Made by a program: the position numbers and the translations under genes
The notes under the pieces: model-generated
The model's input: only the letters and a program-made list of their open reading frames with translations
The model's database searches: none
What the model was told of the DNA's origin: nothing
Shown: positions 11,986 through 40,200 of the stretch, piece after piece
Position numbering within the stretch: the first letter of the stretch is position 1
Layout of the letters: every line of letters begins with the position of its first letter
Source: Loxodes magnus
Lineage: Eukaryota; Ciliophora; Karyorelictea; Loxodida; Loxodidae
Assembly (NCBI GenBank): GCA_946699065.1
Contig: CAMPDV010001173.1
Location: forward strand, 1 to 64,000
Length of the DNA: 64,000 nt
Direction of reading: 5' to 3'

Positions 11986-12012
11986 TTTAAGTTTTTATTA
12001 TATATATAATAA

Positions 12013-12393: not shown

Positions 12394-12563
12394 ATCTTTA
12401 TTTATTTTATATATTAATCGATTTTACCTTAAAAAATCTATCTTTACTATTAAATCAATTCACTAAAATTAGTTATTTATATGATTTTAACTATGCCAAA
12501 ATGTTGAAAAAAAGACAAAAGACTAATTAATAGTAATCAAAATATAAATTAATTAATTAATGT

Positions 12564-18358: not shown

Positions 18359-19480
18359 TTCTTAAATTAAATTTAAACTAAAAGAGTTTTTTGACGTCTT
18401 TAATTGCAAGAATTGCTTCTTTCTATTCATCTTTAGCTTCTTCCTTTTTTGCTTTCTCCATTTCTAGAATCTCAAGTCTCCTTGTCATTAGTTTCTTGTG
18501 AAAGTCTAAATACTCCAATTTAGGCCTTGAAAATGAGTTTAGATATTCTTGATCGAATAGTATAAGGGGCCTTAAGTCATAATTTCCGATCTTTTCCGAT
18601 AATAAATTCATTGTGTTTAAATAATACACACATTTAAAGATATTCTCGAAAGTCTCATACTCTCCACACATACAATAGGGATTATCAATGGGGTAATGAC
18701 GATCTTAAAGATCCTTACAAAAATTATAAGTTTAGGTTCTAAGTCTATACATCCTGATAATTTTTCGTCTATACTATTTGTTTAATTTCGTATAAGTAAT
18801 TTGTGGAAATTGTTAAAGATTACCAAATTATTCAATATACTTTAGCTGTTTTCATTCTCATAAATTTTTAGTAGCTACTTTATAAAAATATTGTTGTATT
18901 TTTTCTCATATGTTTAGTAAATGTTTTAAGATTGAAATTATTCTATTAATTCTGCAGATCGATATTATAAAGGTCTGATAATTGCTACACTTAATCGTAG
19001 TGTTGAAATCCTTTTTTCCATATATTAATGAAAAGAGAGCCTATTGTTGATCTTGGAAAATCAATACTTTCTTATTTCATTTTATAGTAGAATCTGAAGA
19101 ATTTTATAGCCTTAATATGCTTAAAAGGTAATCAATTCAGGTCTATATAACATGATTCATTAAATGTTGAAATTGCTACTTAACAAGCTTTTCTTGAAAT
19201 TAATCTCATGCTTGATTCAATTCTGTTCAGAACTCCAGTTACTCCTTTTTGAATACTTCATGGTGCTAAGTCTCCTCCATATTCTGCTTTAGGTAATGTA
19301 AGTTCTATATAGCAATACTCATTTAAAGTATGTTCAGGTGCTTAAATGACTTTTCTTGCTATCAATCTCATGCTTTTATCAATTTTATTTAATGTTGCAG
19401 TAATTCCATTTTAGATAGATCAAGATACCAATTCTCCTCCATATTGTTATACTTGGCTATTTTAAATAAATATTATATTT
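18359..19480 (-). mobile_element. Truncated LINE ORF2 3' end, inverted, with a nested second piece
   Basis: The reverse complement matches the C-terminal part of the LINE at 42180-43230, including the zinc-finger block P-Y-C-M-C-G-E-Y-E-T-F, the coiled tail L-E-I-L-E-M-E-K-A-K-K-E-E-A-K-D-E and the final K-D-V-K-K-L-F. It lacks endonuclease and most of the reverse transcriptase. Around 19330-19480 a second diverged copy of the 'V-T-G/A-V-L-N' stretch appears, so one LINE fragment is inserted into, or duplicated within, another. The copy deletes about 60 bp near the C-terminus relative to the long LINE. Confidence 0.7.
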
Positions 19481-19608
19481 GTCTAGATTTAAGACAAAAA
19501 AGAATTTAAAAATGGTTATATCAGCGATAAAGTAATTATAAGTGTAAATAATTAAAATAAATTAAGTTATTTAAATTGTTTTGAAATTTAGTAAGGGAAA
19601 TTATTAAA

Positions 19609-20590
19609 ATGAGCTACTTTAATACAAAAATTATTTAAGTAAGTTATAAAATTAAAAATGGAGAAAAAAGAAATACAATTTACTAAAAAAAGCTTGCTTT
19701 TACGAAAAATCTTAAGATAACGAAAAGATTTCTTGGAACAATACCACTTCTTCTATTTAAATATGAAATATTACCAAATTTATGCTTCTAAAAACTTGTT
19801 AATAAGATCAATTACGATAAAAGCAAAGGTATTTCTTTAATATTTTTAGACTAATCCCTTACTGGGCACTTCTCATATGTTTACTCGGTAGTTATTTCCC
19901 CTGATTAGAAATAAATTGTATCAGCATCTTACGATAAAACGATAAAGATCTGAGATTTTCATATTGGTTTTCTCTTAAAAAATTTGACTGGACATAATTC
20001 TTACGTTTACTAGGTAGTTATCTCTGCTGACTAGAAATAAATTGTATCTAGCTCTGCAGACTCCTCAATAAATATCTGGAATTTCTAGACTGGTGCTCTC
20101 CTAAGAACTTTGATTAGACACTGCTCATCTATTTACTAGGTAATTATGAGTCCTGATTAGAAATGAATAATTTCAGCATCTAACGATAAAACAATAAAGA
20201 TCTGGGATTTCCTTTCTGGTCAGCTTGAACGAACTCTTTCTAGGCACTCTAGCTCAGTTTTTTCAGTAATTGTGTCTTAGGATAATAGGTATATAATATC
20301 GGGTTCCTATGACAATTCAATTAAGATATGGGACTTCTCTACTGGTTGGCTAGTTTGTACTCTTCAAGGGTATATAGAATTATATAAAGTATTTAACTTA
20401 GTACTGATTCTAGCGTTATATTTTCTGGTTCTTATGATTAAACAATCAAGATAAGGAACTTTATAATGGGCGAATATATCCAGACTCTTTAAAAGAATAA
20501 ATCATCAATAGAATCTATAGAATTAAGTAGTGACAATAGATGGTTAGTATCTGGAGATTAGGATAGTATGTGAGAAAGTAGAGAATTGCA
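19609..20590 (+). pseudogene. WD40-repeat protein, decayed paralogue
   Basis: This is a paralogue of the WD40 gene at 44308-45086. The ATG at 19609 opens a frame containing I-P-L-L-L-F-K-Y-E-I-L-P-N-L-C and L-V-N-K-I-N-Y-D-K-S-K-D, matching the other copy. A 21-nt GT-AG intron (19829-19849) sits at the same place as in the intact gene. WD blades follow (S-Y-D-K-T-I-K-I-W-D, S-N-D-K-T-I-K-I-W-D, S-Y-D-N-S-I-K-I-W-D). Near 20360 one base is missing relative to the paralogue, the last blade is frameshifted again, and the position of the TGA stop is TAG. It is therefore probably a pseudogene. Confidence 0.65.
19829..19849 (+). other. 21-nt GT-AG intron in the WD40 pseudogene
   Basis: GTATTTCTTTAATATTTTTAG. 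Removing it joins K-S-K-D to the first WD blade in frame, as does the equivalent 20-nt intron at 44447-44466 in the paralogue. Confidence 0.65.
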
Positions 20591-20599
20591 AGTTGCGAA

Positions 20600-20985
20600 T
20601 TAGAGATAAACTAATTTAAGACTAATTTTATTTTACAATTTAGTAGTTAATAATAAAAACTAAACGAAGCTAAGTAATACATTTTAAATTGCTTAATATT
20701 TTAAAAAGATTAAAGTTCTCCATTTTTTTAATTAAAGGAAAATATCGATTATGTTTACGTGTATTATTCATATTTATTTTAAAAGATAATTATACAGATT
20801 AGTTTTTTGTATTATGAGATATTAAGTTTCTAATAGAGATTGATTTAGATCATGTTTTTGTATATTTAGAAATTTATATAAATTTTTTGGGCTTTTTCTA
20901 TTTAGTTGATAAATATGAATATTTCTTAGTTTTTTTTTAAGTTTCAAAGTCTTTTCCATTATCGTTTCAAAGCAAGTTGAAATTT
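20600..20985. other. AT-rich spacer before the tRNA array
   Basis: No gene or RNA recognised. Confidence 0.3.
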
Positions 20986-21360
20986 TAAAATAACACTGTA
21001 ATCAGATTTAACAAGGTCTATAATTGATTGATTATTATAAAGTCAGGTTTAGCTCTTTTTTACTGTTCTTAGGTTCTAATGAATTTCTCGAAGATGGCGG
21101 AACCTCATTTTATATCTTTTACATTTTGATATTTCTTTTGTAAATTGATTCTAAATATTATAAGTTTATTAACAAGCATATTTATAGAATTCCTATTACT
21201 TTGAAAAATGTTGTCTAACTTAAAAACACTTCTAAAATAATCTCTTTTAAAGTCTATTATTAGAATGACAGAAAGTATAACTTTCATTTTATAAAGTAAA
21301 CTAGTTTATGTCAGAGAACTACAGTAAGGTTTTTAAGTGAAGTAAAGCATATAAAATTAA

Positions 21361-21441
21361 GACACTATGGCCGAGTGGTTAAGGCGACAGACTTGAAATC
21401 TGTTGGGTTCTCCCGCGCAGGTTCAAATCCTGCTGGTGTCG
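21361..21441 (+). tRNA. tRNA-Ser(UGA), unit 1
   Basis: An 81-nt cloverleaf with a 7-bp acceptor stem GACACTA/TGGTGTC (one G-U), G discriminator, D arm GGCCGAGTGGTTAAGGC, anticodon loop CTTGAAA (anticodon UGA, reading UCA), a long class II variable arm and T arm CAGGTTCAAATCCTG. All are standard serine features. A T run follows directly (GTTTTTAG) and would terminate pol III. Despite its name it reads UCA, so it is not the tRNA that decodes UGA as Trp. Confidence 0.95.
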
Positions 21442-21501
21442 TTTTTAGTAAACTCTTAATAAAAAATGATACTTATTGTAGTGAAACAATTAATTATAGA
21501 T

Positions 21502-21574
21502 GCCCTTGTAGCCTAATGGATAAGGCGCTTCCCTCCTAAGGAAGAGATTGCGGGTTCAAGTCCCGTCAAGGGTG
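21502..21574 (+). tRNA. tRNA-Arg(CCU), unit 1
   Basis: A 73-nt cloverleaf: acceptor GCCCTTG/CAAGGGT with a G1-U72 pair, D arm AGCCTAATGGATAAGGC, anticodon stem CTTCC/GGAAG around loop CTCCTAA (anticodon CCU, reading AGG), T arm GCGGGTTCAAGTCCCGT, discriminator G, then a T7 terminator. The sequence closely follows eukaryotic tRNA-Arg(CCU). Confidence 0.95.
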
Positions 21575-21642
21575 TTTTTTTATATAAAATTTAAATATTT
21601 TGTTAATGAATATATTGATTGCTTAAGTCATATAAAAAAAGA

Positions 21643-21722
21643 TGACAGTGGTGGGATTTGAACCCACGCCCCGAAAGACTAGCGCCTAAAGCTAGCGCCT
21701 TGGACCACTCGGCCACACTGTC
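21643..21722 (-). tRNA. tRNA-Leu(UAG), unit 1
   Basis: An 80-nt class II tRNA on the minus strand: acceptor GACAGTG paired with CACTGTC, discriminator A, D arm GGCCGAGTGGTCCAAGGC, anticodon stem CTAGC/GCTAG around TTTAGGC (anticodon UAG, reading CUA), short variable arm and T arm GTGGGTTCAAATCCCAC. It ends before a TTTTTT tract on its own strand. It is a leucine tRNA, not a suppressor reading UAG codons. Confidence 0.95.
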
Positions 21723-22029
21723 TTACCAATATAGTGAGAAGAAAGAAATAAAAAGTCTAAACTTTTTTAATGAGAATGATATTTTGTTGATGTGATAAAC
21801 CTTAAGAAATGTTTCATTTTTAAGAAACATTTTTTTTAAATCTTTTTATTTCATTGAACAGCATTTACTATTCTTTTTTTGCTTCATATTAGCTCCAAAA
21901 ACAAGTTTTTAAAACTATTAAATAATATAAAAGTTTTATTGTTTTCTTTATTTACTTTTTTAAATATTTTTTTTGATCTTCTATTTCCTTCTTAAATTCT
22001 CTTTTTCATTAGATTCGAAAACAACAAGA

Positions 22030-22395
22030 ATATTTTTATGAAGAGCGCACTTTTTTCGTGCTCAGCTCTTTGCATTTATATATGTTCGTTGCTTCAAGTA
22101 TAGAAGGTCTTTCCTTATTAGTTACATATCTTGCTCATTTTCCTCTATTTTATCTCTTGTTCTTCTATCATCGCTTTAATAGATTTTTATTGCTTAATAT
22201 GTTTTTTCTTACATATTTTACTAATTTTAATTTCTAATTCTTTTCTTCTTTAACAAGCTTTTTTATACTCATAAAAATTATCCTTTTCCTGCTCTATATT
22301 CTTTTCCTATTTATTTTTTTCATTCAAATTTCTTTTCTATATTTTCCTTTTTTCTAATGAATCTTTGATATAATCTTTTATTATATCATTTAAAT
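22030..22395 (-). mobile_element. LINE-B 3' tail inside the array unit (unit 1; repeated in all full units)
   Basis: On the minus strand this matches 51837-52222: the I-K-D-Y-I-K-x-x-L-E-K-R-K block, the AGAGCAGGAAAAGGATAATTTTTATGAG stretch, and at the left end (22041-22073) a variant terminal hairpin with arms GAGCTGAGCAC and GTGCGCTCTT around a poly-A loop. It is therefore the 3' end of a 5'-truncated LINE that was co-amplified with the tRNA genes. Equivalent copies recur every 1655 bp. Confidence 0.7.
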
Positions 22396-22640
22396 AGGGT
22401 GCAAACCCCTTTCCTTCGGATGCTGCTTGGAGGCAAGGCAACAAAAAATTAGCGCGGAGGATAAATCGGAGGAAGAGAAACCAAGAGAAAGAAGATGCGA
22501 CAAGCTGGAGAACTCTGAATGCCAGGAGGAAACTTTCTTCATCATAGGAAATATACCCGTAATCGCATCCTATGCTTTGGAAGGAAAAATTACAGGGACG
22601 TACAGGAAGAGGATAGAATAAAAAAATGTTCGACATGAAA
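22392..22640 (+). mobile_element. SINE-B fragment inside the array unit (unit 1; repeated in all full units)
   Basis: It aligns with 57511-57820 from the TTTAAATAGG junction through the CTCCTTCGGA/CGCTGCTTGGAGG hairpin region, the CAAGCTGGAGAACTCTGAATGCC block and ACTTTCTTCATCATAGG, but lacks the terminal hairpin. The match is about 80-90% by eye. It abuts the LINE-B tail head-to-head, a typical result of nested insertion. Confidence 0.65.
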
Positions 22641-23015
22641 TAAAATAACACTGTAATCAGATTTAACAAGGTCTATAATTGATTGATTATTATAAAGTCA
22701 GGTTTAGCTCTTTTTTACTGTTCTTAGGTTCTAATGAATTTCTCGAAGATGGCGGAACCTCATTTTATATCTTTTACATTTTGATATTTCTTTTGTAAAT
22801 TGATTCTAAATATTATAAGTTTATTAACAAGCATATTTATAGAATTCCTATTACTTTGAAAAATGTTGTCTAACTTAAAAACACTTCTAAAATAATCTCT
22901 TTTAAAGTCTATTATTAGAATGACAGAAAGTATAACTTTCATTTTATAAAGTAAACTAGTTTATGTCAGAGAACTACAGTAAGGTTTTTAAGTGAAGTAA
23001 AGCATATAAAATTAA

Positions 23016-23096
23016 GACACTATGGCCGAGTGGTTAAGGCGACAGACTTGAAATCTGTTGGGTTCTCCCGCGCAGGTTCAAATCCTGCTGGTGTCG
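23016..23096 (+). tRNA. tRNA-Ser(UGA), unit 2
   Basis: Identical to 21361-21441. Confidence 0.95.
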
Positions 23097-23156
23097 TTTT
23101 TAGTAAACTCTTAATAAAAAATGATACTTATTGTAGTGAAACAATTAATTATAGAT

Positions 23157-23229
23157 GCCCTTGTAGCCTAATGGATAAGGCGCTTCCCTCCTAAGGAAGA
23201 GATTGCGGGTTCAAGTCCCGTCAAGGGTG
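23157..23229 (+). tRNA. tRNA-Arg(CCU), unit 2
   Basis: Identical to 21502-21574. Confidence 0.95.
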
Positions 23230-23297
23230 TTTTTTTATATAAAATTTAAATATTTTGTTAATGAATATATTGATTGCTTAAGTCATATAAAAAAAGA

Positions 23298-23377
23298 TGA
23301 CAGTGGTGGGATTTGAACCCACGCCCCGAAAGACTAGCGCCTAAAGCTAGCGCCTTGGACCACTCGGCCACACTGTC
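23298..23377 (-). tRNA. tRNA-Leu(UAG), unit 2
   Basis: Identical to 21643-21722. Confidence 0.95.
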
Positions 23378-24670
23378 TTACCAATATAGTGAGAAGAAAG
23401 AAATAAAAAGTCTAAACTTTTTTAATGAGAATGATATTTTGTTGATGTGATAAACCTTAAGAAATGTTTCATTTTTAAGAAACATTTTTTTTAAATCTTT
23501 TTATTTCATTGAACAGCATTTACTATTCTTTTTTTGCTTCATATTAGCTCCAAAAACAAGTTTTTAAAACTATTAAATAATATAAAAGTTTTATTGTTTT
23601 CTTTATTTACTTTTTTAAATATTTTTTTTGATCTTCTATTTCCTTCTTAAATTCTCTTTTTCATTAGATTCGAAAACAACAAGAATATTTTTATGAAGAG
23701 CGCACTTTTTTCGTGCTCAGCTCTTTGCATTTATATATGTTCGTTGCTTCAAGTATAGAAGGTCTTTCCTTATTAGTTACATATCTTGCTCATTTTCCTC
23801 TATTTTATCTCTTGTTCTTCTATCATCGCTTTAATAGATTTTTATTGCTTAATATGTTTTTTCTTACATATTTTACTAATTTTAATTTCTAATTCTTTTC
23901 TTCTTTAACAAGCTTTTTTATACTCATAAAAATTATCCTTTTCCTGCTCTATATTCTTTTCCTATTTATTTTTTTCATTCAAATTTCTTTTCTATATTTT
24001 CCTTTTTTCTAATGAATCTTTGATATAATCTTTTATTATATCATTTAAATAGGGTGCAAACCCCTTTCCTTCGGATGCTGCTTGGAGGCAAGGCAACAAA
24101 AAATTAGCGCGGAGGATAAATCGGAGGAAGAGAAACCAAGAGAAAGAAGATGCGACAAGCTGGAGAACTCTGAATGCCAGGAGGAAACTTTCTTCATCAT
24201 AGGAAATATACCCGTAATCGCATCCTATGCTTTGGAAGGAAAAATTACAGGGACGTACAGGAAGAGGATAGAATAAAAAAATGTTCGACATGAAATAAAA
24301 TAACACTGTAATCAGATTTAACAAGGTCTATAATTGATTGATTATTATAAAGTCAGGTTTAGCTCTTTTTTACTGTTCTTAGGTTCTAATGAATTTCTCG
24401 AAGATGGCGGAACCTCATTTTATATCTTTTACATTTTGATATTTCTTTTGTAAATTGATTCTAAATATTATAAGTTTATTAACAAGCATATTTATAGAAT
24501 TCCTATTACTTTGAAAAATGTTGTCTAACTTAAAAACACTTCTAAAATAATCTCTTTTAAAGTCTATTATTAGAATGACAGAAAGTATAACTTTCATTTT
24601 ATAAAGTAAACTAGTTTATGTCAGAGAACTACAGTAAGGTTTTTAAGTGAAGTAAAGCATATAAAATTAA

Positions 24671-24751
24671 GACACTATGGCCGAGTGGTTAAGGCGACAG
24701 ACTTGAAATCTGTTGGGTTCTCCCGCGCAGGTTCAAATCCTGCTGGTGTCG
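24671..24751 (+). tRNA. tRNA-Ser(UGA), unit 3
   Basis: Identical to 21361-21441. Confidence 0.95.
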
Positions 24752-24811
24752 TTTTTAGTAAACTCTTAATAAAAAATGATACTTATTGTAGTGAAACAAT
24801 TAATTATAGAT

Positions 24812-24884
24812 GCCCTTGTAGCCTAATGGATAAGGCGCTTCCCTCCTAAGGAAGAGATTGCGGGTTCAAGTCCCGTCAAGGGTG
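24812..24884 (+). tRNA. tRNA-Arg(CCU), unit 3
   Basis: Identical to 21502-21574. Confidence 0.95.
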
Positions 24885-24952
24885 TTTTTTTATATAAAAT
24901 TTAAATATTTTGTTAATGAATATATTGATTGCTTAAGTCATATAAAAAAAGA

Positions 24953-25032
24953 TGACAGTGGTGGGATTTGAACCCACGCCCCGAAAGACTAGCGCCTAAA
25001 GCTAGCGCCTTGGACCACTCGGCCACACTGTC
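24953..25032 (-). tRNA. tRNA-Leu(UAG), unit 3
   Basis: Identical to 21643-21722. Confidence 0.95.
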
Positions 25033-26325
25033 TTACCAATATAGTGAGAAGAAAGAAATAAAAAGTCTAAACTTTTTTAATGAGAATGATATTTTGTTGA
25101 TGTGATAAACCTTAAGAAATGTTTCATTTTTAAGAAACATTTTTTTTAAATCTTTTTATTTCATTGAACAGCATTTACTATTCTTTTTTTGCTTCATATT
25201 AGCTCCAAAAACAAGTTTTTAAAACTATTAAATAATATAAAAGTTTTATTGTTTTCTTTATTTACTTTTTTAAATATTTTTTTTGATCTTCTATTTCCTT
25301 CTTAAATTCTCTTTTTCATTAGATTCGAAAACAACAAGAATATTTTTATGAAGAGCGCACTTTTTTCGTGCTCAGCTCTTTGCATTTATATATGTTCGTT
25401 GCTTCAAGTATAGAAGGTCTTTCCTTATTAGTTACATATCTTGCTCATTTTCCTCTATTTTATCTCTTGTTCTTCTATCATCGCTTTAATAGATTTTTAT
25501 TGCTTAATATGTTTTTTCTTACATATTTTACTAATTTTAATTTCTAATTCTTTTCTTCTTTAACAAGCTTTTTTATACTCATAAAAATTATCCTTTTCCT
25601 GCTCTATATTCTTTTCCTATTTATTTTTTTCATTCAAATTTCTTTTCTATATTTTCCTTTTTTCTAATGAATCTTTGATATAATCTTTTATTATATCATT
25701 TAAATAGGGTGCAAACCCCTTTCCTTCGGATGCTGCTTGGAGGCAAGGCAACAAAAAATTAGCGCGGAGGATAAATCGGAGGAAGAGAAACCAAGAGAAA
25801 GAAGATGCGACAAGCTGGAGAACTCTGAATGCCAGGAGGAAACTTTCTTCATCATAGGAAATATACCCGTAATCGCATCCTATGCTTTGGAAGGAAAAAT
25901 TACAGGGACGTACAGGAAGAGGATAGAATAAAAAAATGTTCGACATGAAATAAAATAACACTGTAATCAGATTTAACAAGGTCTATAATTGATTGATTAT
26001 TATAAAGTCAGGTTTAGCTCTTTTTTACTGTTCTTAGGTTCTAATGAATTTCTCGAAGATGGCGGAACCTCATTTTATATCTTTTACATTTTGATATTTC
26101 TTTTGTAAATTGATTCTAAATATTATAAGTTTATTAACAAGCATATTTATAGAATTCCTATTACTTTGAAAAATGTTGTCTAACTTAAAAACACTTCTAA
26201 AATAATCTCTTTTAAAGTCTATTATTAGAATGACAGAAAGTATAACTTTCATTTTATAAAGTAAACTAGTTTATGTCAGAGAACTACAGTAAGGTTTTTA
26301 AGTGAAGTAAAGCATATAAAATTAA

Positions 26326-26406
26326 GACACTATGGCCGAGTGGTTAAGGCGACAGACTTGAAATCTGTTGGGTTCTCCCGCGCAGGTTCAAATCCTGCTG
26401 GTGTCG
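26326..26406 (+). tRNA. tRNA-Ser(UGA), unit 4
   Basis: Identical to 21361-21441. Confidence 0.95.
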
Positions 26407-26466
26407 TTTTTAGTAAACTCTTAATAAAAAATGATACTTATTGTAGTGAAACAATTAATTATAGAT

Positions 26467-26539
26467 GCCCTTGTAGCCTAATGGATAAGGCGCTTCCCTC
26501 CTAAGGAAGAGATTGCGGGTTCAAGTCCCGTCAAGGGTG
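26467..26539 (+). tRNA. tRNA-Arg(CCU), unit 4
   Basis: Identical to 21502-21574. Confidence 0.95.
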
Positions 26540-26607
26540 TTTTTTTATATAAAATTTAAATATTTTGTTAATGAATATATTGATTGCTTAAGTCATATAA
26601 AAAAAGA

Positions 26608-26687
26608 TGACAGTGGTGGGATTTGAACCCACGCCCCGAAAGACTAGCGCCTAAAGCTAGCGCCTTGGACCACTCGGCCACACTGTC
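26608..26687 (-). tRNA. tRNA-Leu(UAG), unit 4
   Basis: Identical to 21643-21722. Confidence 0.95.
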
Positions 26688-27980
26688 TTACCAATATAGT
26701 GAGAAGAAAGAAATAAAAAGTCTAAACTTTTTTAATGAGAATGATATTTTGTTGATGTGATAAACCTTAAGAAATGTTTCATTTTTAAGAAACATTTTTT
26801 TTAAATCTTTTTATTTCATTGAACAGCATTTACTATTCTTTTTTTGCTTCATATTAGCTCCAAAAACAAGTTTTTAAAACTATTAAATAATATAAAAGTT
26901 TTATTGTTTTCTTTATTTACTTTTTTAAATATTTTTTTTGATCTTCTATTTCCTTCTTAAATTCTCTTTTTCATTAGATTCGAAAACAACAAGAATATTT
27001 TTATGAAGAGCGCACTTTTTTCGTGCTCAGCTCTTTGCATTTATATATGTTCGTTGCTTCAAGTATAGAAGGTCTTTCCTTATTAGTTACATATCTTGCT
27101 CATTTTCCTCTATTTTATCTCTTGTTCTTCTATCATCGCTTTAATAGATTTTTATTGCTTAATATGTTTTTTCTTACATATTTTACTAATTTTAATTTCT
27201 AATTCTTTTCTTCTTTAACAAGCTTTTTTATACTCATAAAAATTATCCTTTTCCTGCTCTATATTCTTTTCCTATTTATTTTTTTCATTCAAATTTCTTT
27301 TCTATATTTTCCTTTTTTCTAATGAATCTTTGATATAATCTTTTATTATATCATTTAAATAGGGTGCAAACCCCTTTCCTTCGGATGCTGCTTGGAGGCA
27401 AGGCAACAAAAAATTAGCGCGGAGGATAAATCGGAGGAAGAGAAACCAAGAGAAAGAAGATGCGACAAGCTGGAGAACTCTGAATGCCAGGAGGAAACTT
27501 TCTTCATCATAGGAAATATACCCGTAATCGCATCCTATGCTTTGGAAGGAAAAATTACAGGGACGTACAGGAAGAGGATAGAATAAAAAAATGTTCGACA
27601 TGAAATAAAATAACACTGTAATCAGATTTAACAAGGTCTATAATTGATTGATTATTATAAAGTCAGGTTTAGCTCTTTTTTACTGTTCTTAGGTTCTAAT
27701 GAATTTCTCGAAGATGGCGGAACCTCATTTTATATCTTTTACATTTTGATATTTCTTTTGTAAATTGATTCTAAATATTATAAGTTTATTAACAAGCATA
27801 TTTATAGAATTCCTATTACTTTGAAAAATGTTGTCTAACTTAAAAACACTTCTAAAATAATCTCTTTTAAAGTCTATTATTAGAATGACAGAAAGTATAA
27901 CTTTCATTTTATAAAGTAAACTAGTTTATGTCAGAGAACTACAGTAAGGTTTTTAAGTGAAGTAAAGCATATAAAATTAA

Positions 27981-28061
27981 GACACTATGGCCGAGTGGTT
28001 AAGGCGACAGACTTGAAATCTGTTGGGTTCTCCCGCGCAGGTTCAAATCCTGCTGGTGTCG
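27981..28061 (+). tRNA. tRNA-Ser(UGA), unit 5
   Basis: Identical to 21361-21441. Confidence 0.95.
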
Positions 28062-28121
28062 TTTTTAGTAAACTCTTAATAAAAAATGATACTTATTGTA
28101 GTGAAACAATTAATTATAGAT

Positions 28122-28194
28122 GCCCTTGTAGCCTAATGGATAAGGCGCTTCCCTCCTAAGGAAGAGATTGCGGGTTCAAGTCCCGTCAAGGGTG
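28122..28194 (+). tRNA. tRNA-Arg(CCU), unit 5
   Basis: Identical to 21502-21574. Confidence 0.95.
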
Positions 28195-28262
28195 TTTTTT
28201 TATATAAAATTTAAATATTTTGTTAATGAATATATTGATTGCTTAAGTCATATAAAAAAAGA

Positions 28263-28342
28263 TGACAGTGGTGGGATTTGAACCCACGCCCCGAAAGACT
28301 AGCGCCTAAAGCTAGCGCCTTGGACCACTCGGCCACACTGTC
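28263..28342 (-). tRNA. tRNA-Leu(UAG), unit 5
   Basis: Identical to 21643-21722. Confidence 0.95.
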
Positions 28343-29635
28343 TTACCAATATAGTGAGAAGAAAGAAATAAAAAGTCTAAACTTTTTTAATGAGAATGAT
28401 ATTTTGTTGATGTGATAAACCTTAAGAAATGTTTCATTTTTAAGAAACATTTTTTTTAAATCTTTTTATTTCATTGAACAGCATTTACTATTCTTTTTTT
28501 GCTTCATATTAGCTCCAAAAACAAGTTTTTAAAACTATTAAATAATATAAAAGTTTTATTGTTTTCTTTATTTACTTTTTTAAATATTTTTTTTGATCTT
28601 CTATTTCCTTCTTAAATTCTCTTTTTCATTAGATTCGAAAACAACAAGAATATTTTTATGAAGAGCGCACTTTTTTCGTGCTCAGCTCTTTGCATTTATA
28701 TATGTTCGTTGCTTCAAGTATAGAAGGTCTTTCCTTATTAGTTACATATCTTGCTCATTTTCCTCTATTTTATCTCTTGTTCTTCTATCATCGCTTTAAT
28801 AGATTTTTATTGCTTAATATGTTTTTTCTTACATATTTTACTAATTTTAATTTCTAATTCTTTTCTTCTTTAACAAGCTTTTTTATACTCATAAAAATTA
28901 TCCTTTTCCTGCTCTATATTCTTTTCCTATTTATTTTTTTCATTCAAATTTCTTTTCTATATTTTCCTTTTTTCTAATGAATCTTTGATATAATCTTTTA
29001 TTATATCATTTAAATAGGGTGCAAACCCCTTTCCTTCGGATGCTGCTTGGAGGCAAGGCAACAAAAAATTAGCGCGGAGGATAAATCGGAGGAAGAGAAA
29101 CCAAGAGAAAGAAGATGCGACAAGCTGGAGAACTCTGAATGCCAGGAGGAAACTTTCTTCATCATAGGAAATATACCCGTAATCGCATCCTATGCTTTGG
29201 AAGGAAAAATTACAGGGACGTACAGGAAGAGGATAGAATAAAAAAATGTTCGACATGAAATAAAATAACACTGTAATCAGATTTAACAAGGTCTATAATT
29301 GATTGATTATTATAAAGTCAGGTTTAGCTCTTTTTTACTGTTCTTAGGTTCTAATGAATTTCTCGAAGATGGCGGAACCTCATTTTATATCTTTTACATT
29401 TTGATATTTCTTTTGTAAATTGATTCTAAATATTATAAGTTTATTAACAAGCATATTTATAGAATTCCTATTACTTTGAAAAATGTTGTCTAACTTAAAA
29501 ACACTTCTAAAATAATCTCTTTTAAAGTCTATTATTAGAATGACAGAAAGTATAACTTTCATTTTATAAAGTAAACTAGTTTATGTCAGAGAACTACAGT
29601 AAGGTTTTTAAGTGAAGTAAAGCATATAAAATTAA

Positions 29636-29716
29636 GACACTATGGCCGAGTGGTTAAGGCGACAGACTTGAAATCTGTTGGGTTCTCCCGCGCAGGTTCA
29701 AATCCTGCTGGTGTCG
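29636..29716 (+). tRNA. tRNA-Ser(UGA), unit 6
   Basis: Identical to 21361-21441. Confidence 0.95.
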
Positions 29717-29776
29717 TTTTTAGTAAACTCTTAATAAAAAATGATACTTATTGTAGTGAAACAATTAATTATAGAT

Positions 29777-29849
29777 GCCCTTGTAGCCTAATGGATAAGG
29801 CGCTTCCCTCCTAAGGAAGAGATTGCGGGTTCAAGTCCCGTCAAGGGTG
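29777..29849 (+). tRNA. tRNA-Arg(CCU), unit 6
   Basis: Identical to 21502-21574. Confidence 0.95.
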
Positions 29850-29917
29850 TTTTTTTATATAAAATTTAAATATTTTGTTAATGAATATATTGATTGCTTA
29901 AGTCATATAAAAAAAGA

Positions 29918-29997
29918 TGACAGTGGTGGGATTTGAACCCACGCCCCGAAAGACTAGCGCCTAAAGCTAGCGCCTTGGACCACTCGGCCACACTGTC
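29918..29997 (-). tRNA. tRNA-Leu(UAG), unit 6
   Basis: Identical to 21643-21722. The single unit-specific substitution (30180) lies outside it. Confidence 0.95.
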
Positions 29998-31290
29998 TTA
30001 CCAATATAGTGAGAAGAAAGAAATAAAAAGTCTAAACTTTTTTAATGAGAATGATATTTTGTTGATGTGATAAACCTTAAGAAATGTTTCATTTTTAAGA
30101 AACATTTTTTTTAAATCTTTTTATTTCATTGAACAGCATTTACTATTCTTTTTTTGCTTCATATTAGCTCCAAAAACAATTTTTTAAAACTATTAAATAA
30201 TATAAAAGTTTTATTGTTTTCTTTATTTACTTTTTTAAATATTTTTTTTGATCTTCTATTTCCTTCTTAAATTCTCTTTTTCATTAGATTCGAAAACAAC
30301 AAGAATATTTTTATGAAGAGCGCACTTTTTTCGTGCTCAGCTCTTTGCATTTATATATGTTCGTTGCTTCAAGTATAGAAGGTCTTTCCTTATTAGTTAC
30401 ATATCTTGCTCATTTTCCTCTATTTTATCTCTTGTTCTTCTATCATCGCTTTAATAGATTTTTATTGCTTAATATGTTTTTTCTTACATATTTTACTAAT
30501 TTTAATTTCTAATTCTTTTCTTCTTTAACAAGCTTTTTTATACTCATAAAAATTATCCTTTTCCTGCTCTATATTCTTTTCCTATTTATTTTTTTCATTC
30601 AAATTTCTTTTCTATATTTTCCTTTTTTCTAATGAATCTTTGATATAATCTTTTATTATATCATTTAAATAGGGTGCAAACCCCTTTCCTTCGGATGCTG
30701 CTTGGAGGCAAGGCAACAAAAAATTAGCGCGGAGGATAAATCGGAGGAAGAGAAACCAAGAGAAAGAAGATGCGACAAGCTGGAGAACTCTGAATGCCAG
30801 GAGGAAACTTTCTTCATCATAGGAAATATACCCGTAATCGCATCCTATGCTTTGGAAGGAAAAATTACAGGGACGTACAGGAAGAGGATAGAATAAAAAA
30901 ATGTTCGACATGAAATAAAATAACACTGTAATCAGATTTAACAAGGTCTATAATTGATTGATTATTATAAAGTCAGGTTTAGCTCTTTTTTACTGTTCTT
31001 AGGTTCTAATGAATTTCTCGAAGATGGCGGAACCTCATTTTATATCTTTTACATTTTGATATTTCTTTTGTAAATTGATTCTAAATATTATAAGTTTATT
31101 AACAAGCATATTTATAGAATTCCTATTACTTTGAAAAATGTTGTCTAACTTAAAAACACTTCTAAAATAATCTCTTTTAAAGTCTATTATTAGAATGACA
31201 GAAAGTATAACTTTCATTTTATAAAGTAAACTAGTTTATGTCAGAGAACTACAGTAAGGTTTTTAAGTGAAGTAAAGCATATAAAATTAA

Positions 31291-31371
31291 GACACTATGG
31301 CCGAGTGGTTAAGGCGACAGACTTGAAATCTGTTGGGTTCTCCCGCGCAGGTTCAAATCCTGCTGGTGTCG
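31291..31371 (+). tRNA. tRNA-Ser(UGA), partial unit 7
   Basis: Identical to 21361-21441; the last complete tRNA gene of the array. Confidence 0.95.
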
Positions 31372-31431
31372 TTTTTAGTAAACTCTTAATAAAAAATGAT
31401 ACTTATTGTAGTGAAACAATTAATTATAGAT

Positions 31432-31444
31432 GCCCTTGTAGCCT
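31432..31444 (+). pseudogene. Truncated tRNA-Arg(CCU) at the array edge
   Basis: Only the first 13 nt (GCCCTTGTAGCCT) of the tRNA remain. Sequence then changes abruptly to unrelated DNA, marking the right breakpoint of the array. Confidence 0.9.
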
Positions 31445-33260
31445 GGAAGTCTTTAGTTACTTTTAGTATGAATCTAATCATTTCCAAGATAAGTATTGTT
31501 AACATAACTAAATAACTAAATGATAAAAATTTTAAATTTAAATCGAAATAATTAAAAAAACTTATAAAGAAATATCTGATTAAACTAGATATGTCTAGTT
31601 TAATTTTTGATAATGATGCTATAATTTTACTCTATTTGTTTTATTAGTTAGAAGCAAGAGAAGACGATTTTTTTTAATATCTTTTTTATTGCTTTCATTA
31701 AGCTTTAGAATTAAGATTTTGGGAAATTGAAATTTAAGATTTTATAAAGTTCATTCATTTAACCTGTTTGAATTTAAGGAAATTTTAGATAAGATATAAA
31801 ATTATAGTTTTAGAATTATTTATCAATCTAGTGGATAAATAACTGATCTTACACTGAATTTGATGGAGTTTTTTTATCAGTTTATACTTTTAAAGTTAAT
31901 AATCTGAGGATAAAGTTTTACAGATTAATAAAATCTTAAGAAAGTAATAAGAAACTTAAAATTTATCGGCTCTATAGGAAAAGTAAGGATCGATTTTAAC
32001 TCCAGCGATAAAGCCTCAATTCAATAAATAATTTAGAATTTTAGGAAAGACAATTGAAGCCAATTATAAATTTAGAATATAGGATTATATTGTCTAGCTT
32101 TTAATTTCGTTTTTAATTTCAATTAATAGTTTTTGTGAGGAGATGGAAGCACTTGAATCTTTCAAGATAACTGATAGTTATCATGTCCTTTTGAAGAAAG
32201 AGAAATAAAATAATTAAAAAATGAATATGTAATTAAATATGCTGTATTAATTACAATGGTATTTATATAAGTGGTGGTTTCTTTATTGGAAATAAAAGCA
32301 AATTACAATTATGAGTTTGTTAATCTTGAAAGAGTATTTGTAATATCTATTTGAGACTTTATTTATATCTTGCGTTTACTTTTTTATTTCTTATAGATTG
32401 TATCAGTAGGACCCGATATATCTAGCTACGGAAATTTGGTATAGTTTATTATAAACTGCGTTTAATTAGATTTTGTAAAAATTTTTGTTGATTCGAATAA
32501 TAAGCAATACTCTAAAAATATAGTTGCATGTATTTTTGCTGTTTTATGAATTATATACTTTTTATCTATCCTACTTCGGCTTGAACTTTCATGATGAACA
32601 ATTTTCTATTTAATATGAAGCGTATCTTATTATATAGGGCCTTTCTTAACTTATAGCTTTTTTCTCCCTTTAAATTGAAATTTTATGGATCTGTTTATTT
32701 GCTTGGAAGGAGTAGATTGAAATCACGATGGAAAAATACAATTTTGAGAGTCTTTTCATTATAAAGATTGCAGCTGAAAATGCTGATAAGGAGTTCATCT
32801 TAAGCCTGTAATTTTATGTTCAATCTACTTTTTAATTTATTAAATTTATGGAACTAAAACAGTTCTGATGTGACAGGAGCTTTATGGATGGTTAATGAAA
32901 GTAAAATATAAAAAAAGTTTCTTAGTAATTTTAAGAGTCCTGCTGATAGTATTATGTTCCTTTAACATTGTTTTATAAAAGTAGAATAAAATAATACATG
33001 CTATGCTTTTTCTTTTCTATTATACTTATAAGTTGAATCCATGTAACTATCCTAATTGGGAATTCTTATATTTCTTTCTTATAATATTAATCATGCTGTA
33101 GTTTAAATTTTTAGATTGTCCCTTTCTTAATTTTATATTGATGAAAGAAATTATTTAAGTTCATTTTTTATAGGCTGCTTAATTACTAGTTAATTAGGCT
33201 ATAAATTTCAAAGCAAATATAAAACTTTGATTACTATTTTTGAGTTGGACGAAACATATT
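31445..33260. other. AT-rich stretch, coding status unresolved
   Basis: A plus-strand frame from ATG at 31591 is nearly free of TGA for about 400 codons, but its Gly/Pro content is at random level. A better-looking frame covers about 32850-33260 (S-S-D-V-T-G-A-L-W-M-V-N-E-S and F-E-L-D-E-T-Y-L-F) without TGA and with more acidic residues, so a fragment of a membrane-type protein is possible. No family is recognised. Confidence 0.25.
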
Positions 33261-33269
33261 TATTCAGAT

Positions 33270-33970
33270 GATCATTCTAATGCAAAAAGAATTAGAATCT
33301 ACTTTACTTTTACATTTAGAACTAGATAACCTATCTTAATTTTAGAAAATTATTTAAAGGATGCTAGTATCTTTCTTCAATGTTAAAGACCAAATTTACT
33401 ATTCCGTTTTATTTAACGATGAATTTGGCCACTGCTTGTCAGTACTCGCTCCATATTTTATTCCTTACCACTTGTATCACTTCTTAGTTTATGGCATTTT
33501 TTTTACTAAATTAGTATTTTCCAGATAGTGGTTAAAATAAACTGCGACCGCCATATCTGATAGATCATCATAAGTATTTTAGTAGACTCTTACTATTAAG
33601 TCTTCAGGGACGTTGGTTGAAATAAGTTGCTCATTCTTTTGCTAAATTATTGCTTAGGTTTTTTACTTTTTTTACCACTTCATTCCTTTCTTATTTTATA
33701 CTCCTCCTTTTAGTGAAGTCTGTCCAACCATAGATATATTGATATCCTTTTTTCTGCTGAGTGTATTATTATATCATGCTTCTTCAATCGGTGAATTTGG
33801 TTCGGTGTATTCTGAGTGCTTGAGTTATGAGTCTAGTTTCCATTCATAATAAAGAAGGTTGGATTAATTAAAGCGAAGATCTGGTAGAAGAAGAAAGCGC
33901 TTCAGGTTTTCTCTCCTATTTTGAGGTGGTATAAAAGCCCTTCTTGAAGCAAACCTTTTTTTTAATTATA
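33270..33970 (-). pseudogene. Gag-like ORF1 relative, frameshifted
   Basis: On the minus strand the first readable block is K-K-G-F-Y-T-T-S-K-Q-E-R-K-P-E-A-L, matching the N-terminus of the ORF1 at 46476 (K-K-G-F-Y-T-T-S-F-K-V-Q-K-E-E-R-K-Q-E-V-L). Further on, a different frame reads N-V-P-E-D-L-I-V-R-V-Y-Q-N-T-Y-D-D-L and V-Y-F-N-H-Y-L-E-N-T, with normal amino-acid composition. No zinc knuckle was found. At least one frameshift separates the two parts. Confidence 0.45.
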
Positions 33971-33979
33971 CAAAGAAAG

Positions 33980-35050
33980 CAGACATATTAACCCATAAAA
34001 AGCAATAAGATCATTTATTATATATATCATAAAATGTATTTATTGAATCATAAATCAAGAAAGCAATACAGAAGATTATTTTATTTTAGTTAATAAAAGG
34101 ATCAAGACCAATATGTATATAAAATAGAAGATATCAATTTAAAAATCTAACGATTACTCAAAATATATACTAATATCATATAACTATATCAAGAAGAGAA
34201 ACTGAGAGTGAAAATAAAGAAAAAGAAAAAGAGAAGAACATAAAAATGAAAAAGTATTAAATAGTATATTTCGTACTTAAAAAAACAAATACGATGAAAG
34301 AAATTTCATAAAAAATATAAATCTCAGTTCTTAGTTGAAATCTTCTTCATATGCTTCACACTGAGTTGCTGACATTTTATTTTTTTGAATGAGTGAAAAA
34401 TAAAAATGTTACTTAATATTTTATTGTATAGATATCACTTAAGAAAGTAACTGAAGGTAATTTGTTTTGCATTAATTATATGAGATTACTTATTAAATTC
34501 AAAAATAGTTATTACCTACTTTTAAAATTATTACATTAATGGAAGATTTTTCCCTCTGAATCTAAATCATTATACAACTATAAAGAGGAATTAGTGAAAG
34601 TCACTTCTAAGCTATACTGCTAACTAAAACTAAATCATCCAAAAATTCGTTTATTAACTAATTTTCCAACCTTTTATCTTCTAAAACGAAGGGAAAATAT
34701 CTAGGAAGATAAAGAAAAGTAAGAAAATAATAGGCTTTCAAAGGAAGTAGTTCAACTATAGAAACTGATAAAAAGAAGAGGAAGAAGATTTAAAAATAGT
34801 ACGATATGCTTAGAATGATAATAAATGGTTAAATGGTTTAACTTGATCTTAGTGATTTTGAAGCTAAGTATTTAATAAACTTAATCAACATTGAGAAATA
34901 TCCAATTAGATTAATCTATAAAATGATTTAATAAGTACTTTCTAAGGTAGAATAAATGCTTAATATTATAATGTATACTTTTTAATATATCAAGAGGATA
35001 AGTTAGAAGAGTTATTTAATTATTGTATTTTCTTATATGAGATAGATTAG
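33980..35050. other. AT-rich stretch, nothing firmly recognised
   Basis: An ATG at 34034 follows TATATATCATAAA, the run seen before SINE-A heads and ORF1 starts, so a decayed element may begin here. No knuckle, enzyme motif or RNA is visible. Confidence 0.3.
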
Positions 35051-35059
35051 TAAGAAAGA

Positions 35060-36540
35060 TATTTGAGTGCTTTTAGTAATTTAAAAATTAAAAAATAGAT
35101 AAGAGGCGACTTTGAATGGAAGTAGTCTTAGAGCTCAATCTTTAAATCCTTATCTCTAATTTTCTTTATTAGTAACACTCTAGTTGAGATGTTAAGAGAT
35201 TTAATGCTTAACCTAGCAAATAAACTTTCCTCTCAGCTTTCTTTAAAATATTTCATATTTTTTTCGTTTATTAATGTCCATGGTGCATATTTTCTCTACT
35301 TAAATCATTTTTATATTCCTTTTAAAATGTTGTTTAAGTTTCTTAATTAATTTCATCTAGGAAAATATTTAATTGATTTTTCCTATCTTTTTTTGATGCA
35401 ATCTAGATTTTCTCCTTGCTTCTTATCTCATTTTAATATAATTATCAATTTCTTAGCATCCTTATCTAATTAGATATTTTACTTATTTCGCCTGCTATTA
35501 GGATATTTTCTTAGTTTTATTGTTTTTGCTGTATATTAGTACCTTCTCATTTAATTTGCTACAAAGCCCCTCATATCGCTTTGGTCGCTTTTTGGATGTG
35601 TTCTGATCATTTGTCATAGTATGCTTTTCTATTAAATTTTCGAATTCACTAAAATCTATTTTCTCGAATATTATTTGAATCTCTCTTGAATCTTCTATAC
35701 CTTTAATTTTTGAACATTTATCCTTTTAATTTACGGACTTTTGCGATATTCTTCCGCAATTTTTATCTTTATTTTACCTGACTAACAATCTCCTATTGGT
35801 CTCTATTAAAAGAATTTTGCGCTGACAATGTTAGGCGTGATATATTGATTTGTTAAGAAGTAATCTATTTTGAATTTTCCTTTCCCTTATGTTATGATGA
35901 AGGTTGAATCTTTACATTCTAAATGATAATCTCTCATCAAGTTAAGTAAGTATTAGCCTGCTAATCTACTCATATGATAAAAATTGGGAAATATTCACAT
36001 TAAAGTCCCCTAATATTAAAATTTACAATCTTTTGCTACTTGCTGCTATTATGTATTATTATAGACTTTCATAAAAGGTTATTAGTTAATCAGAGTCGGA
36101 TCTTGCAGTGTATATATGTTTATCAAAGCCAGCTGATCATCAAGTGCTAAACCTATTGATCTTCCTCTCTAAAATAATTCTGTTTGATTGAGATCCGCTA
36201 TATCCAATACTTTGGTTCCGCGGATAATTCCATCTTTTATATAAAATGCTACTCCTTTGCAGTGTTTTGTACAACCTTCAAATATTTCATCGACATATTT
36301 TAAAGAAATATATTTAAGTCAGCTCTACGAATTGTTTGCTTCTAAATATTCAATTCTGATTTTTGCTGAATAATTATATCGCATTCTATTCTTATGATTT
36401 ACAAATCAGGTATGCGATTTTTCCTTCAAGCTATTATACATTTCATAAAAATTTAAAATTCTCCTATTGCATAATTTTGAGTTCTTGATGTGTATTTTGC
36501 AAATCATAATTTGATTGAGATAGATCTTGTTAGAATAAAC
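35060..36540 (-). mobile_element. Truncated LINE: endonuclease and linker region
   Basis: Minus-strand frames carry pieces of an APE-type LINE endonuclease: G-V-A-F-Y-I-K-D-G-I-I-R-G, L-A-L-D-D-Q-L-A-L-I-N-I-Y-T, then in a second frame I-L-G-D-F-N-V-N (the G-D-F-N catalytic motif) and G-K-G-K-F-K-I-D-Y-F-L-T. Downstream comes the charged linker normally found between endonuclease and reverse transcriptase (W-G-A-L-Q-Q, K-S-K-E-K-I-Q-I type sequence). No reverse-transcriptase motif is left. Frameshifts make this a dead fragment, distinct in sequence from the long LINE at 37214. Confidence 0.6.
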
Positions 36541-37205
36541 TTTTTGCAAAAAATGTTTAATTTTTTATATAAAATATTAGTAATTTTTTAGTTTTTACTT
36601 AATTTGATTCCTTTTTAGTAACTTTTCTTTATTTTTAATTTTTGCTTTTTTTATTATTTTTACTATTTTGAAAGTTTTATCAAATCTACTATAAACTTAG
36701 TTCGTCATAAAGGATTTTATAATTATTTAATAATGTATTTATTTTGATAGGAAGTTTTCTTATTAGTTAATATAGCAGTAATTCTATAATCTTGTAAATG
36801 ATAATAATAACTTATATAAATATGATATTTTAGAGTTAAATTGATAATATATAATCTAGAATAATAAAGATTAGCATAAGTATAAATAATAAAAGTTCGA
36901 TGAACATATTAGTTGGTTTATTTAATGCTTCTTAAATATAGCTAGAACAACAATTCTTAACTTTATTAAATATAGGATAAATATGTAAAAATTCACTATT
37001 TTACTTTAAATTTATAAATCATAGTTTGAAGTACTTTATTAGACATAATCAAATTTTTTAAGGCTTATTTGAAAAATAAGATAAAAAGCTATAATTTAAG
37101 AATTATAAACTATAGTTAGTGATACTGTAAACGTTTCCTTTCTTGCTAGTTTTAAATATTTACTTTCTACAACTTTATTTTATTTATTAAACTTCTAAAA
37201 TCAAA
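36541..37205. other. AT-rich spacer upstream of the long LINE
   Basis: Nothing recognised beyond A/T runs; it ends in an A12 tract immediately before the LINE start codon. Confidence 0.3.
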
Positions 37206-37213
37206 AAAAAAAA

Positions 37214-40200
37214 ATGGACGAAATATAGAATTCACTAGTTTTTAATAGTGACTCTTCTTTAATTAATTTCAAAGAAGCTGCAAATTCATAGGAAAAGCAT
37301 AGGCAGGTGCATTAAAATCTCCAAACGAAAGATTTGGAGTAACTACAAATTAAATAAGTAAACCTAATAATGAATTTATTAAGACAACTACTTAAAAATT
37401 GTAGTCAAAAACCGGAAAACAAATTCATACGCGTCCCATTAAAACTACTTAGGAACTCTCTTCAACGTGGATATTAATTGTAGCGTATTATGAAAGTGAA
37501 ATCAACCTATAAATAGATGAACAGATTAACCGCCTAAAATAATACCGCGAAAGATACGAAACGATTACCTAAGAAATCTTTCCAAAAATAAGATATTATC
37601 TTAGATAGTTAGAATTCAAAAGATATACCTTCAAATCCTAATTAAAATTCAAATAAAGATATCCTTTTATGGTAGTCAAAAATAACATAAACTTAAGATT
37701 CATTTTTGAATAATACTAATTAACAATTCTATTAAATTTCAAATAACGAAATTAATCAGAAATAAAATAATACTACTAATCCTGATAATTCAAATAATCA
37801 TTATTTACCTGATCTTCAGAGCAAACAAGCTTAAAATTAAACTGCTGATTTAAGAAATGTAATATAAAATCAAATAATTAATTAGTCTAATGAGAATTTA
37901 TTTACCTTAGAAATAAAAGAACTTAAACATAATATATAAAGACTTATAGATAAGAACCAATAATTAAATGAAATGTTAATTAATATAAAAGCAAAATATG
38001 AACGAGATATTGAAACATTGATAAGTAACTAAGAAATATCCAAAATATATTATAAAACTTATATAAATAAAATTTATTAGAAATATAAACTATTATAGAA
38101 CTATTTTTAGTCAATCAAATCTGATATATAGCAATATCACAAAAAAATGCTATCAAAATAACTAGTTCATAAAATTACTTAAACAAACTTCTCCACTTAT
38201 TACAGTAACTAAATAGTTTAAACAGATGAAATAATTAGTATATTTCAAGAAATTTAGATATAATAGAAAAACTATGAGAATTAAGTCAATTCAAAATATG
38301 AAATATAATCTAATTAAGAGATTCAAATTGAAGCCAATGCTAATTAAAGCTTTACTTAAGCTTAAATGATAGGAGCAAATAATTCACTATGCCAAAACTT
38401 TAATAAAATTAAAAATTTTACTTAAATTGAAATAGATAACTTTCTAAATAAAACTTAGCAAGGATATCAATAGACTATATTAGAATAGAACTAATATTTA
38501 CTTCAACAAATTACCTAATAAAAAATAATAAACGAAATTTAACTCCAAGAGTTATATTCTTAATATTAAAAATTATAAAACTAAAATAAGTAATTTATAG
38601 ATTAAGAATAGAAAGCTTAAATGGAAATTTTAACTTTTAAAATCGAATTAGATAAGTAAAGATAATAAAAATATGAAATAAATATAGCTTTTCAAAATTA
38701 AATTCTATTAAAAAATAAGGAAATTCAAATGTATAAAGAATTATTTTAGAATTAAATCTAACATACAAAAGAATTCAGTAATTAATAGTAATTTTAGAAG
38801 AAGTAATTTGTAGATGCATAAACTTAGACATTATATGGAAATATTTAAACAAAGGATAGTATTATCTAAACAGATAATATAAATAAATAATAAACAGCTT
38901 TTTTGTGTCAAAAATTTACTCAAACAAATATAATCAAGCAAGACAAGTTAATGTAAACTTAAAATAATTAATAGGAAGCATAAACTAATACTATTATAAC
39001 ATAACATAATAACTAATACTGTCAAATAAAATTGCCAGATGAAGATTTTGTTTTACTATAGCATTAATATCACTAACTCAACTTAAAATTCATTTAAAGT
39101 ACCCAAAATATATAGACACTTGAGATAAAAATAGAAGAGTTTTAAAAACTTAATTAAAATTTGAAAAAAGATATATTTAATTATTCTACTAAAAGATGAA
39201 AAAAAGATTAATAAAACTAAACAGATTCGATCGATGCTATTTATCAGAATTAAGCCTTATCTTCCAATATTAATCTTAATATTCTTAAAAGGAAACATGA
39301 AGAAGAAGATAAAACAATTCCGCCAGCAAAACGTATGAGTAAACATAATAATAAAAAAGAGTGCGATTAAATAATATGTTATTTCAATCTGACTAGTCTA
39401 TAACTTTAAAAGTTTATTAAATCCGAAACTTGAAGACGTCCATAGTACGAAATGCACAATATATAAGGTAGATATGTCACAGTTACTTAAGATTTAGAAT
39501 AAGGTACATGTGATAGTGTGAAAAGTAAAATTGATATAGATAGAAAGCTACTTAAAAAATATACGACGTAAGTAATATATATTTTGATACAATATTTTCA
39601 TTAACATCCTGAGTATGGAAAAAGATTAGTACATATTTAGATTAACCAATAAGGATAGAAAAGCATTTGCATTTACGAAAGTGGTCTATCTGCAGGCTCG
39701 GAAAAAATTAGAAAGGACTAATAAATTTAAAAAATAAAGATGGGACATATAAATATTAATGGAATAGCGAGCAAGTGCTTGAATATTGAAGAATTTATCA
39801 GAGATAACAGTATAGATATTTTATCAATAAACGAAACCTGATAAAAAGATGACTTTCCTCCAATATTGATAAATGGATTTAAAACATATTTTAAGAACTC
39901 AGGAAAAGGAGGAGGTGTATGCTTAATTGTAGGAGAAGAATTTAATAGTACAGAAATACATATATAAGTTGAAAAAGAAATAAATAGATTCATAACAATT
40001 AAACTGGATAATATTTTAATCACGTCTTGTTACATGCCTGATAATGGAAAAAGTTAAGATGTTAAAGATTTAGCTTATGAACAACTAAATACATTGCTGA
40101 ATTTATATAATGATAATCCACATATACTAATGGGAGATTTCAATGCTCTTTTATAAGGCTTCGGTGATAATCCTGAAAATGCTTATGATAATAACATTAG

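Follow-up and report, generated by a model that had tools for sequence, protein, structure and literature searches.

A 1655-bp tandem repeat of Ser, Arg and Leu tRNA genes with nested retroelement remnants in DNA of a likely karyorelict-type ciliate

Tandem arrays of tRNA genes are a kind of structure that is already known, and the Xenopus 3.18-kb tRNA repeat and the human U2 array belong to the general background, neither being used as evidence here. In Entamoeba histolytica, almost all tRNA genes are described as arrayed, in 25 array types whose genes are separated by short tandem repeats (PMC2652664). In the human tRNA repeat at 1q23.3, each unit is reported to carry five tRNA genes together with a MER long terminal repeat (LTR) fragment and a partial long interspersed nuclear element (LINE) (PMC4041453). 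According to Bermudez-Santana et al., large tRNA clusters arise independently outside one protist clade, and the neighbors of tRNA genes in Tetrahymena are mostly of the same type. Here, we analyzed a 64-kb stretch of DNA (hereafter, the window) in which a tandem array of tRNA-Ser, tRNA-Arg and tRNA-Leu genes occupies positions 20986-31444. The original prediction for this DNA had named Entamoeba as a known case of long tandem tRNA arrays; that precedent holds, and human and Arabidopsis arrays stand beside it.

The array is present in the given sequence. It spans 10,459 bp, and self-comparison at an offset of 1655 yielded an exact 1655-bp period, corresponding to 6.32 head-to-tail units. The self-match ran from 20986 to 28524 and again from 28526 to 29789, with 1 mismatch among the 8804 bases compared across the array. 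This sole mismatch pairs 28525 with 30180, at unit position 920, which is G in units 1-5 and T in unit 6. All units are on the plus strand. Unit 1 (20986-22640; unit positions 1-1655) is identical to unit 2 (22641-24295), unit 3 (24296-25950), unit 4 (25951-27605) and unit 5 (27606-29260), with zero differences among the five; unit 6 (29261-30915) departs from them in that one base. Partial unit 7 (30916-31444; 529 bp, unit positions 1-529) matches all six full units along its length and stops 13 nt into a tRNA-Arg gene. Outside the array, identity at the same offset was 30.7%, the value expected from base composition (30.7%). Tandem Repeats Finder (score at least 50, period up to 500) listed no short tandem repeats within 20986-31444, and an exact 41-base pattern of the unit was absent from viral contigs, in a collection that may exclude records close to the window's own genome.

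ARAGORN identified 19 complete tRNA genes in the window, all of them inside the array: 7 tRNA-Ser (UGA) and 6 tRNA-Arg (CCU) on the plus strand, and 6 tRNA-Leu (UAG) on the minus strand. The same 19 were found with the Rfam tRNA model RF00005, at 64-69 bits. In unit 1, tRNA-Ser lies at 21361-21441 (65.6 bits), with further copies starting at 23016, 24671, 26326, 27981, 29636 and 31291; tRNA-Arg lies at 21501-21575 (69.1 bits), with further copies starting at 23156, 24811, 26466, 28121 and 29776; and tRNA-Leu lies at 21643-21722 (64 bits), with further copies starting at 23298, 24953, 26608, 28263 and 29918. A 20th gene, a tRNA-Arg, is truncated after 13 nt by the right edge of the array. The head-to-tail units thus each hold at least one complete tRNA gene, as expected of a tandem tRNA array. 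Every tRNA gene contains a match to the A box (up to 2 edits) and to the B box (up to 1 edit), and is followed within 4 nt downstream by a T run, of five T in tRNA-Ser and seven T in tRNA-Arg and tRNA-Leu. When folded alone, the unit-1 Ser, Arg and Leu tRNAs each gave a cloverleaf; for tRNA-Leu, the D arm was slightly shifted in the lowest-energy fold, and the centroid fold was a clearer cloverleaf. Judged by these features, the genes look like ordinary nuclear RNA polymerase III genes. Both the count of six full units plus a partial seventh with 19 intact tRNA genes and the single base difference at 30180 had been put forward in the original prediction. The period, ARAGORN and Rfam agreed on the former, and the unit alignment counted no difference beyond the latter.

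No Rfam family other than the 19 tRNAs reached its gathering threshold across the 64 kb. When one unit was searched at a relaxed threshold, only tRNAs and two sub-threshold matches overlapping tRNA genes were returned. As a separate observation, AAATGTTTC...GAAACATTT, a short inverted repeat with a T run after it, was seen by eye at 21807-21837 and at the equivalent site in the other full units. It sits between tRNA-Leu and the retroelement remnant described below, and no Rfam match was found there at E 1.

The unit was compared with the rest of the window, the array being masked. Unit positions 1107-1399 matched 52142-51828 on the minus strand (78% identity, E 1e-70), and unit positions 47-131 matched 51834-51750, also on the minus strand (87% identity). 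In the copy at 52142-51750, the two LINE pieces adjoin and have one TTATTAT in common. In the array, they are separated by 302 bp (unit positions 1400-1655 plus 1-46 of the next unit), with TTATTAT on each side; for this composition, a 7-base agreement at a given place is expected by chance about 3 times in 10,000. Unit positions 1387-1628 matched a different part of the window, 57487-57760 (81% identity), and the last 73 bp of the 302-bp insert had no BLAST match in the window except a weak one of 40 bp. From these alignments, a second, shorter element appears to have inserted into the 3' remnant of a minus-strand LINE, with a 7-bp target-site duplication. A head-to-head meeting of a LINE-B tail and a SINE-B (short interspersed nuclear element) fragment had been proposed in the original prediction; that arrangement did not stand, as one element is nested in the other.

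In coordinates of the first copy, the LINE 3' remnant with its hairpin-like end lies at 22037-22384 on the minus strand (unit positions 1052-1399, the tail being delimited by eye), and it recurs in each full unit. The inserted element, at 22385-22686 on the plus strand, straddles the apparent junction between units. The remainder of the interrupted remnant follows on the minus strand at 22687-22771, and its unit-1 copy is at 21032-21116. Retroelement fragments are found in all six full units, and the 529-bp partial unit has the first pieces only. By eye, no target-site duplication of the LINE remnant itself was found.

The remnant's best relative in the window, 50700-52250, contained no Pfam domain when read with genetic code table 27, and its translation had no protein-database relative at E 0.001. 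Its frame aligned end-wise (23% identity, E 2e-8 for a single comparison) to residues 733-1016 of a LINE frame at 39.8-43.0 kb, which lie past the reverse transcriptase. The latter frame, at 39842-43000 on the plus strand, encodes endonuclease and reverse-transcriptase domains identified by Pfam. The remnant in the unit reads in the same frame as 50700-52250 (FEKFIRTQE-QKRAK, then IKDYIK--LEKRK), and its hairpin-like 3' end resembles, by eye, a tail that recurs at, for example, 48342, 52185 and 57827. Because of the alignment past the reverse transcriptase, the matching frame and the recurrent hairpin-like tail, we call the remnant a putative LINE 3' end, of a family other than that at 39.8-43.0 kb.

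Other repeats in the window were also recorded. The hairpin-like tail, which reads AGAGCTGCG...CTCTATAAT with ATTTATTTA-like sequence after it, was seen by eye at 48342, 52185 and 57827 (plus strand) and at 16540 (minus strand), where it ends otherwise unlike elements; this suggests short elements borrowing a LINE 3' end. The stretches 18416-19301 and 43109-42204 are inverted 0.9-kb copies with 93% identity. This pair probably represents a second, truncated LINE copy, 43109-42204 overlapping the 3' part of the 39.8-43-kb LINE. A dispersed repeat family of about 0.4 kb with 76-92% identity (2654-3069, 11994-12410, 16916-16488 and 12539-12945) possibly consists of short retroelements.

A simple in-place tandem duplication leaves whole units, with the array edges at the founding breakpoint. 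Here, the insert is cut in its 3' part by the left edge (20985/20986), and tRNA-Arg is cut by the right edge (31444/31445). A founding breakpoint at the visible junction between unit positions 1655 and 1 is unlikely, as this point lies inside the 302-bp insert, which has the target-site duplication on its two sides. In other words, the order LINE, insert, LINE crosses unit position 1, making the left edge an unlikely founding point. A founding breakpoint at the right edge (unit position 529) would split tRNA-Arg, which is intact in the full units, and is excluded for practical purposes. If neither edge is the founding breakpoint, both were changed after the unit had formed or are assembly joins. 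Unit positions 131-375 and 738-1051 remain as candidate stretches for the founding breakpoint.

Beyond the left edge, Pfam matched WD40 repeats in two of the three plus-strand frames of 18401-20985, the plus strand being the one searched. Beyond the right edge, no Pfam match was found in the three plus-strand frames of 31450-36002. The plus-strand stretches 19509-20595 and 44135-45085 are related (71-76% DNA identity); the former falls in the WD40-repeat coding region, and its likeness to the latter ends about 0.4 kb before the array.

The kind of organism was read from coding frames in the window. The LINE frame at 39842-43000 is open through TAA, TAG and TGA only if TAA and TAG encode Gln and TGA encodes Trp. 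The TGA occurs in KN-W-RPISL, where table 6 stops (9 stops in frame overall). Similarly, in an actin-like gene (49063-50178, minus strand), an in-frame TGA takes the place of an F in Loxodes striatus actin, and the frame ends with the Cys-aromatic pair of other actins directly before a TGA. The pattern of table 27, with TAA and TAG as Gln and TGA serving both as in-frame Trp and as stop, was thus found in two frames, LINE and actin. Loxodes is reported to use table 27, and L. magnus is described as retaining retrotransposons in both nuclei and as having LINEs with both endonuclease and reverse-transcriptase domains (PMC11441545). L. striatus actin (377 aa) had the top identity, 68%, among the 120 matches listed for this single host gene; 64 of the matches listed outscored it in bits, all of at least 426 aa and from other or unnamed sources. 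Together, the sense use of TAA, TAG and TGA and the actin match of highest identity point to a likely Loxodes-like karyorelict. Elsewhere, a minus-strand frame at 54541-56979 is open under table 27 and has an IBR (half RING finger) domain, at 25 bits versus a Pfam cut-off of 24.3 bits.

Taken together, these results lead us to regard the locus, with fair though far from complete confidence, as a three-gene tRNA cassette repeated in tandem on a chromosome of a karyorelict-type ciliate, the array having been changed later at its ends. In the order of events that we infer, a small Ser/Arg/Leu tRNA cluster would have lain beside an old LINE 3' remnant, into which a shorter second element then inserted. 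The 1655-bp segment with the cluster and its nested elements would next have been amplified head-to-tail, and the units would have become or stayed uniform via recent expansion, unequal exchange or gene conversion. Afterwards, the array would have been altered at its two ends. Each full unit would supply three RNA polymerase III templates and thereby extra tRNA gene copies, if the genes are transcribed and functional. The retro-fragments share 78-87% identity with their best matches in the rest of the window (13-22% divergence), and the units are nearly identical, so that the uniformity looks much younger than the insertions. This suggests that amplification or homogenization was recent relative to the insertions. 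A recent origin of this kind had been proposed in the original prediction and fits the data, as units differ by at most one base and the retro-fragments are far more diverged. Its further claim that amplification came after the insertions is the most economical view, though not a necessary one, since an insertion could also be spread by gene conversion.

The same uniformity could belong to an old array held alike by concerted evolution, not to a recent burst. The Entamoeba arrays have been explained in this way, by gene conversion or unequal exchange (PMC2652664), and the retro-fragments in the unit are old. With just one base differing among the units, one genome alone cannot separate this explanation from a recent burst, and we consider it possible, short of probable. 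The two edges lie at unit positions 1 and 529, both implausible as founding points, and raise another route, in which a 1655-bp extrachromosomal circle gave a rolling-circle concatemer that was inserted at a break, with ends at arbitrary unit positions. The fractional unit number and the near-identical units would also suit such a circle. However, in-place duplication with two separate end deletions or rearrangements explains the same facts, and no word longer than 8 bp was common to 100 bases of each flank, leaving no clear target duplication; we therefore regard a circle origin as unlikely. Still more speculative is the fuller scenario that the tRNA cassette with its nested retro-debris was excised as a small circle, amplified into a concatemer and returned to a chromosome in a ciliate without extensive genome editing. 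If true, the circle route would add tandem tRNA genes that the working nucleus could use without editing.

Edges inside features, a non-whole unit count and zero differences among units 1-5 are also what a partial assembly artefact might leave, the array being real but its 6.32 copies and one or both edges having been made by the assembler when it connected dissimilar flanks via a repeat of greater or lesser length. The authors of the L. magnus genome paper suspect misassembled low-complexity repeats in their own long-read assemblies (PMC11441545). Unit 6, however, has a private base change, indicating that the units were not blindly copied, and the crossing of unit boundaries inside the inserted element would require at least two tandem copies; an artefact of this extent seems doubtful to us. 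It is very improbable that the tRNA genes are retroposed, non-working tRNA-like sequences (SINE heads) carried by the retroelements whose pieces occupy the same unit. All three score 64-69 bits in Rfam, fold into cloverleaves and have A and B boxes and T runs of their own; moreover, they are three different tRNAs on two strands, and no 18-mer from the tRNA block was found elsewhere in the window.

Several points weigh against the reading that we favor. The copy number and the junctions come from a single assembly. In BLAST, the insert resembles the 57.5-kb element up to unit position 1628, and by eye the likeness reaches about unit positions 1-6 (TTCGACAT, then TAAAAT), stopping close to the left edge. 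If the matching target-site duplication were a coincidence, the left edge could then still mark a genuine ancient boundary. The single-strand tRNA folds are just 2.2-2.3 standard deviations above shuffles, with 4-7 of 200 shuffles equally good; since this margin is small, the firm evidence for the tRNAs is the ARAGORN and Rfam calls. Finally, tRNA-Arg (CCU) reads a minor codon, AGG, which does not favor a dosage purpose for that gene. Of 139 Arg codons in five coding-like stretches, 13 were AGG; UCA accounted for 55 of 188 Ser codons, and CUA for 63 of 317 Leu codons. Two of these stretches were LINE or LINE-like, one (37073-39199) had no Pfam match and the actin stretch overran the gene end by 10 codons. 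An explanation of all three tRNAs by codon demand is accordingly not favored, in what is a weak test. As the counts show no special need for tRNA-Arg (CCU), it may be by chance that a cluster with these particular genes was amplified.

No tandem tRNA array in a karyorelict ciliate was among the matches listed in our literature searches, and the word "tRNA" is absent from the main text of the L. magnus paper (PMC11441545). Because this type of structure is already known, the interest of the locus is moderate: if reads confirm it, it would add the case of a karyorelict-type ciliate with a tandem tRNA array. If the reading is correct, the nested insertion with its target-site duplication would also place the events in relative order, and the unusual ends would make the mode of amplification testable.

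Among described systems, the rDNA of L. magnus is also reported to form chromosomal head-to-tail arrays of RNA genes in a karyorelict ciliate, but these comprise rRNA and hundreds of genes (PMC11441545). The Arabidopsis SYY (tRNA-Ser/Tyr) cluster likewise is described as a small mixed tRNA cassette in tandem on a nuclear chromosome; it differs in having Ser and Tyr genes, variable regions with pseudogenes, a position beside heterochromatin and silence in most tissues (PMC12308677). Like Entamoeba, in which units are reported to hold 1-5 tRNA genes and retrotransposon sequence often flanks the arrays (PMC2652664), the present locus has a long head-to-tail array in a protist. Here, by contrast, the unit itself contains the retroelement pieces, and the short tandem repeats of the Entamoeba arrays have no listed counterpart. 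The human variable number tandem repeat at 1q23.3 is similar in its head-to-tail units, its several tRNA genes on both strands and its retroelement fragments in every unit (PMC4041453), and such fragments lie inside all six full units of the array analyzed here. The human unit is described as 7.3 kb long and GC-rich, with five tRNA genes, 98% identity between units, 9-43 units per allele and a CTCF site (PMC4041453), whereas the unit here is 1.655 kb long and AT-rich, with three genes and almost no variation between copies. If our reading is correct, the human 1q23.3 design, a tRNA cassette with LINE and LTR debris in each unit, would recur in a distant lineage.

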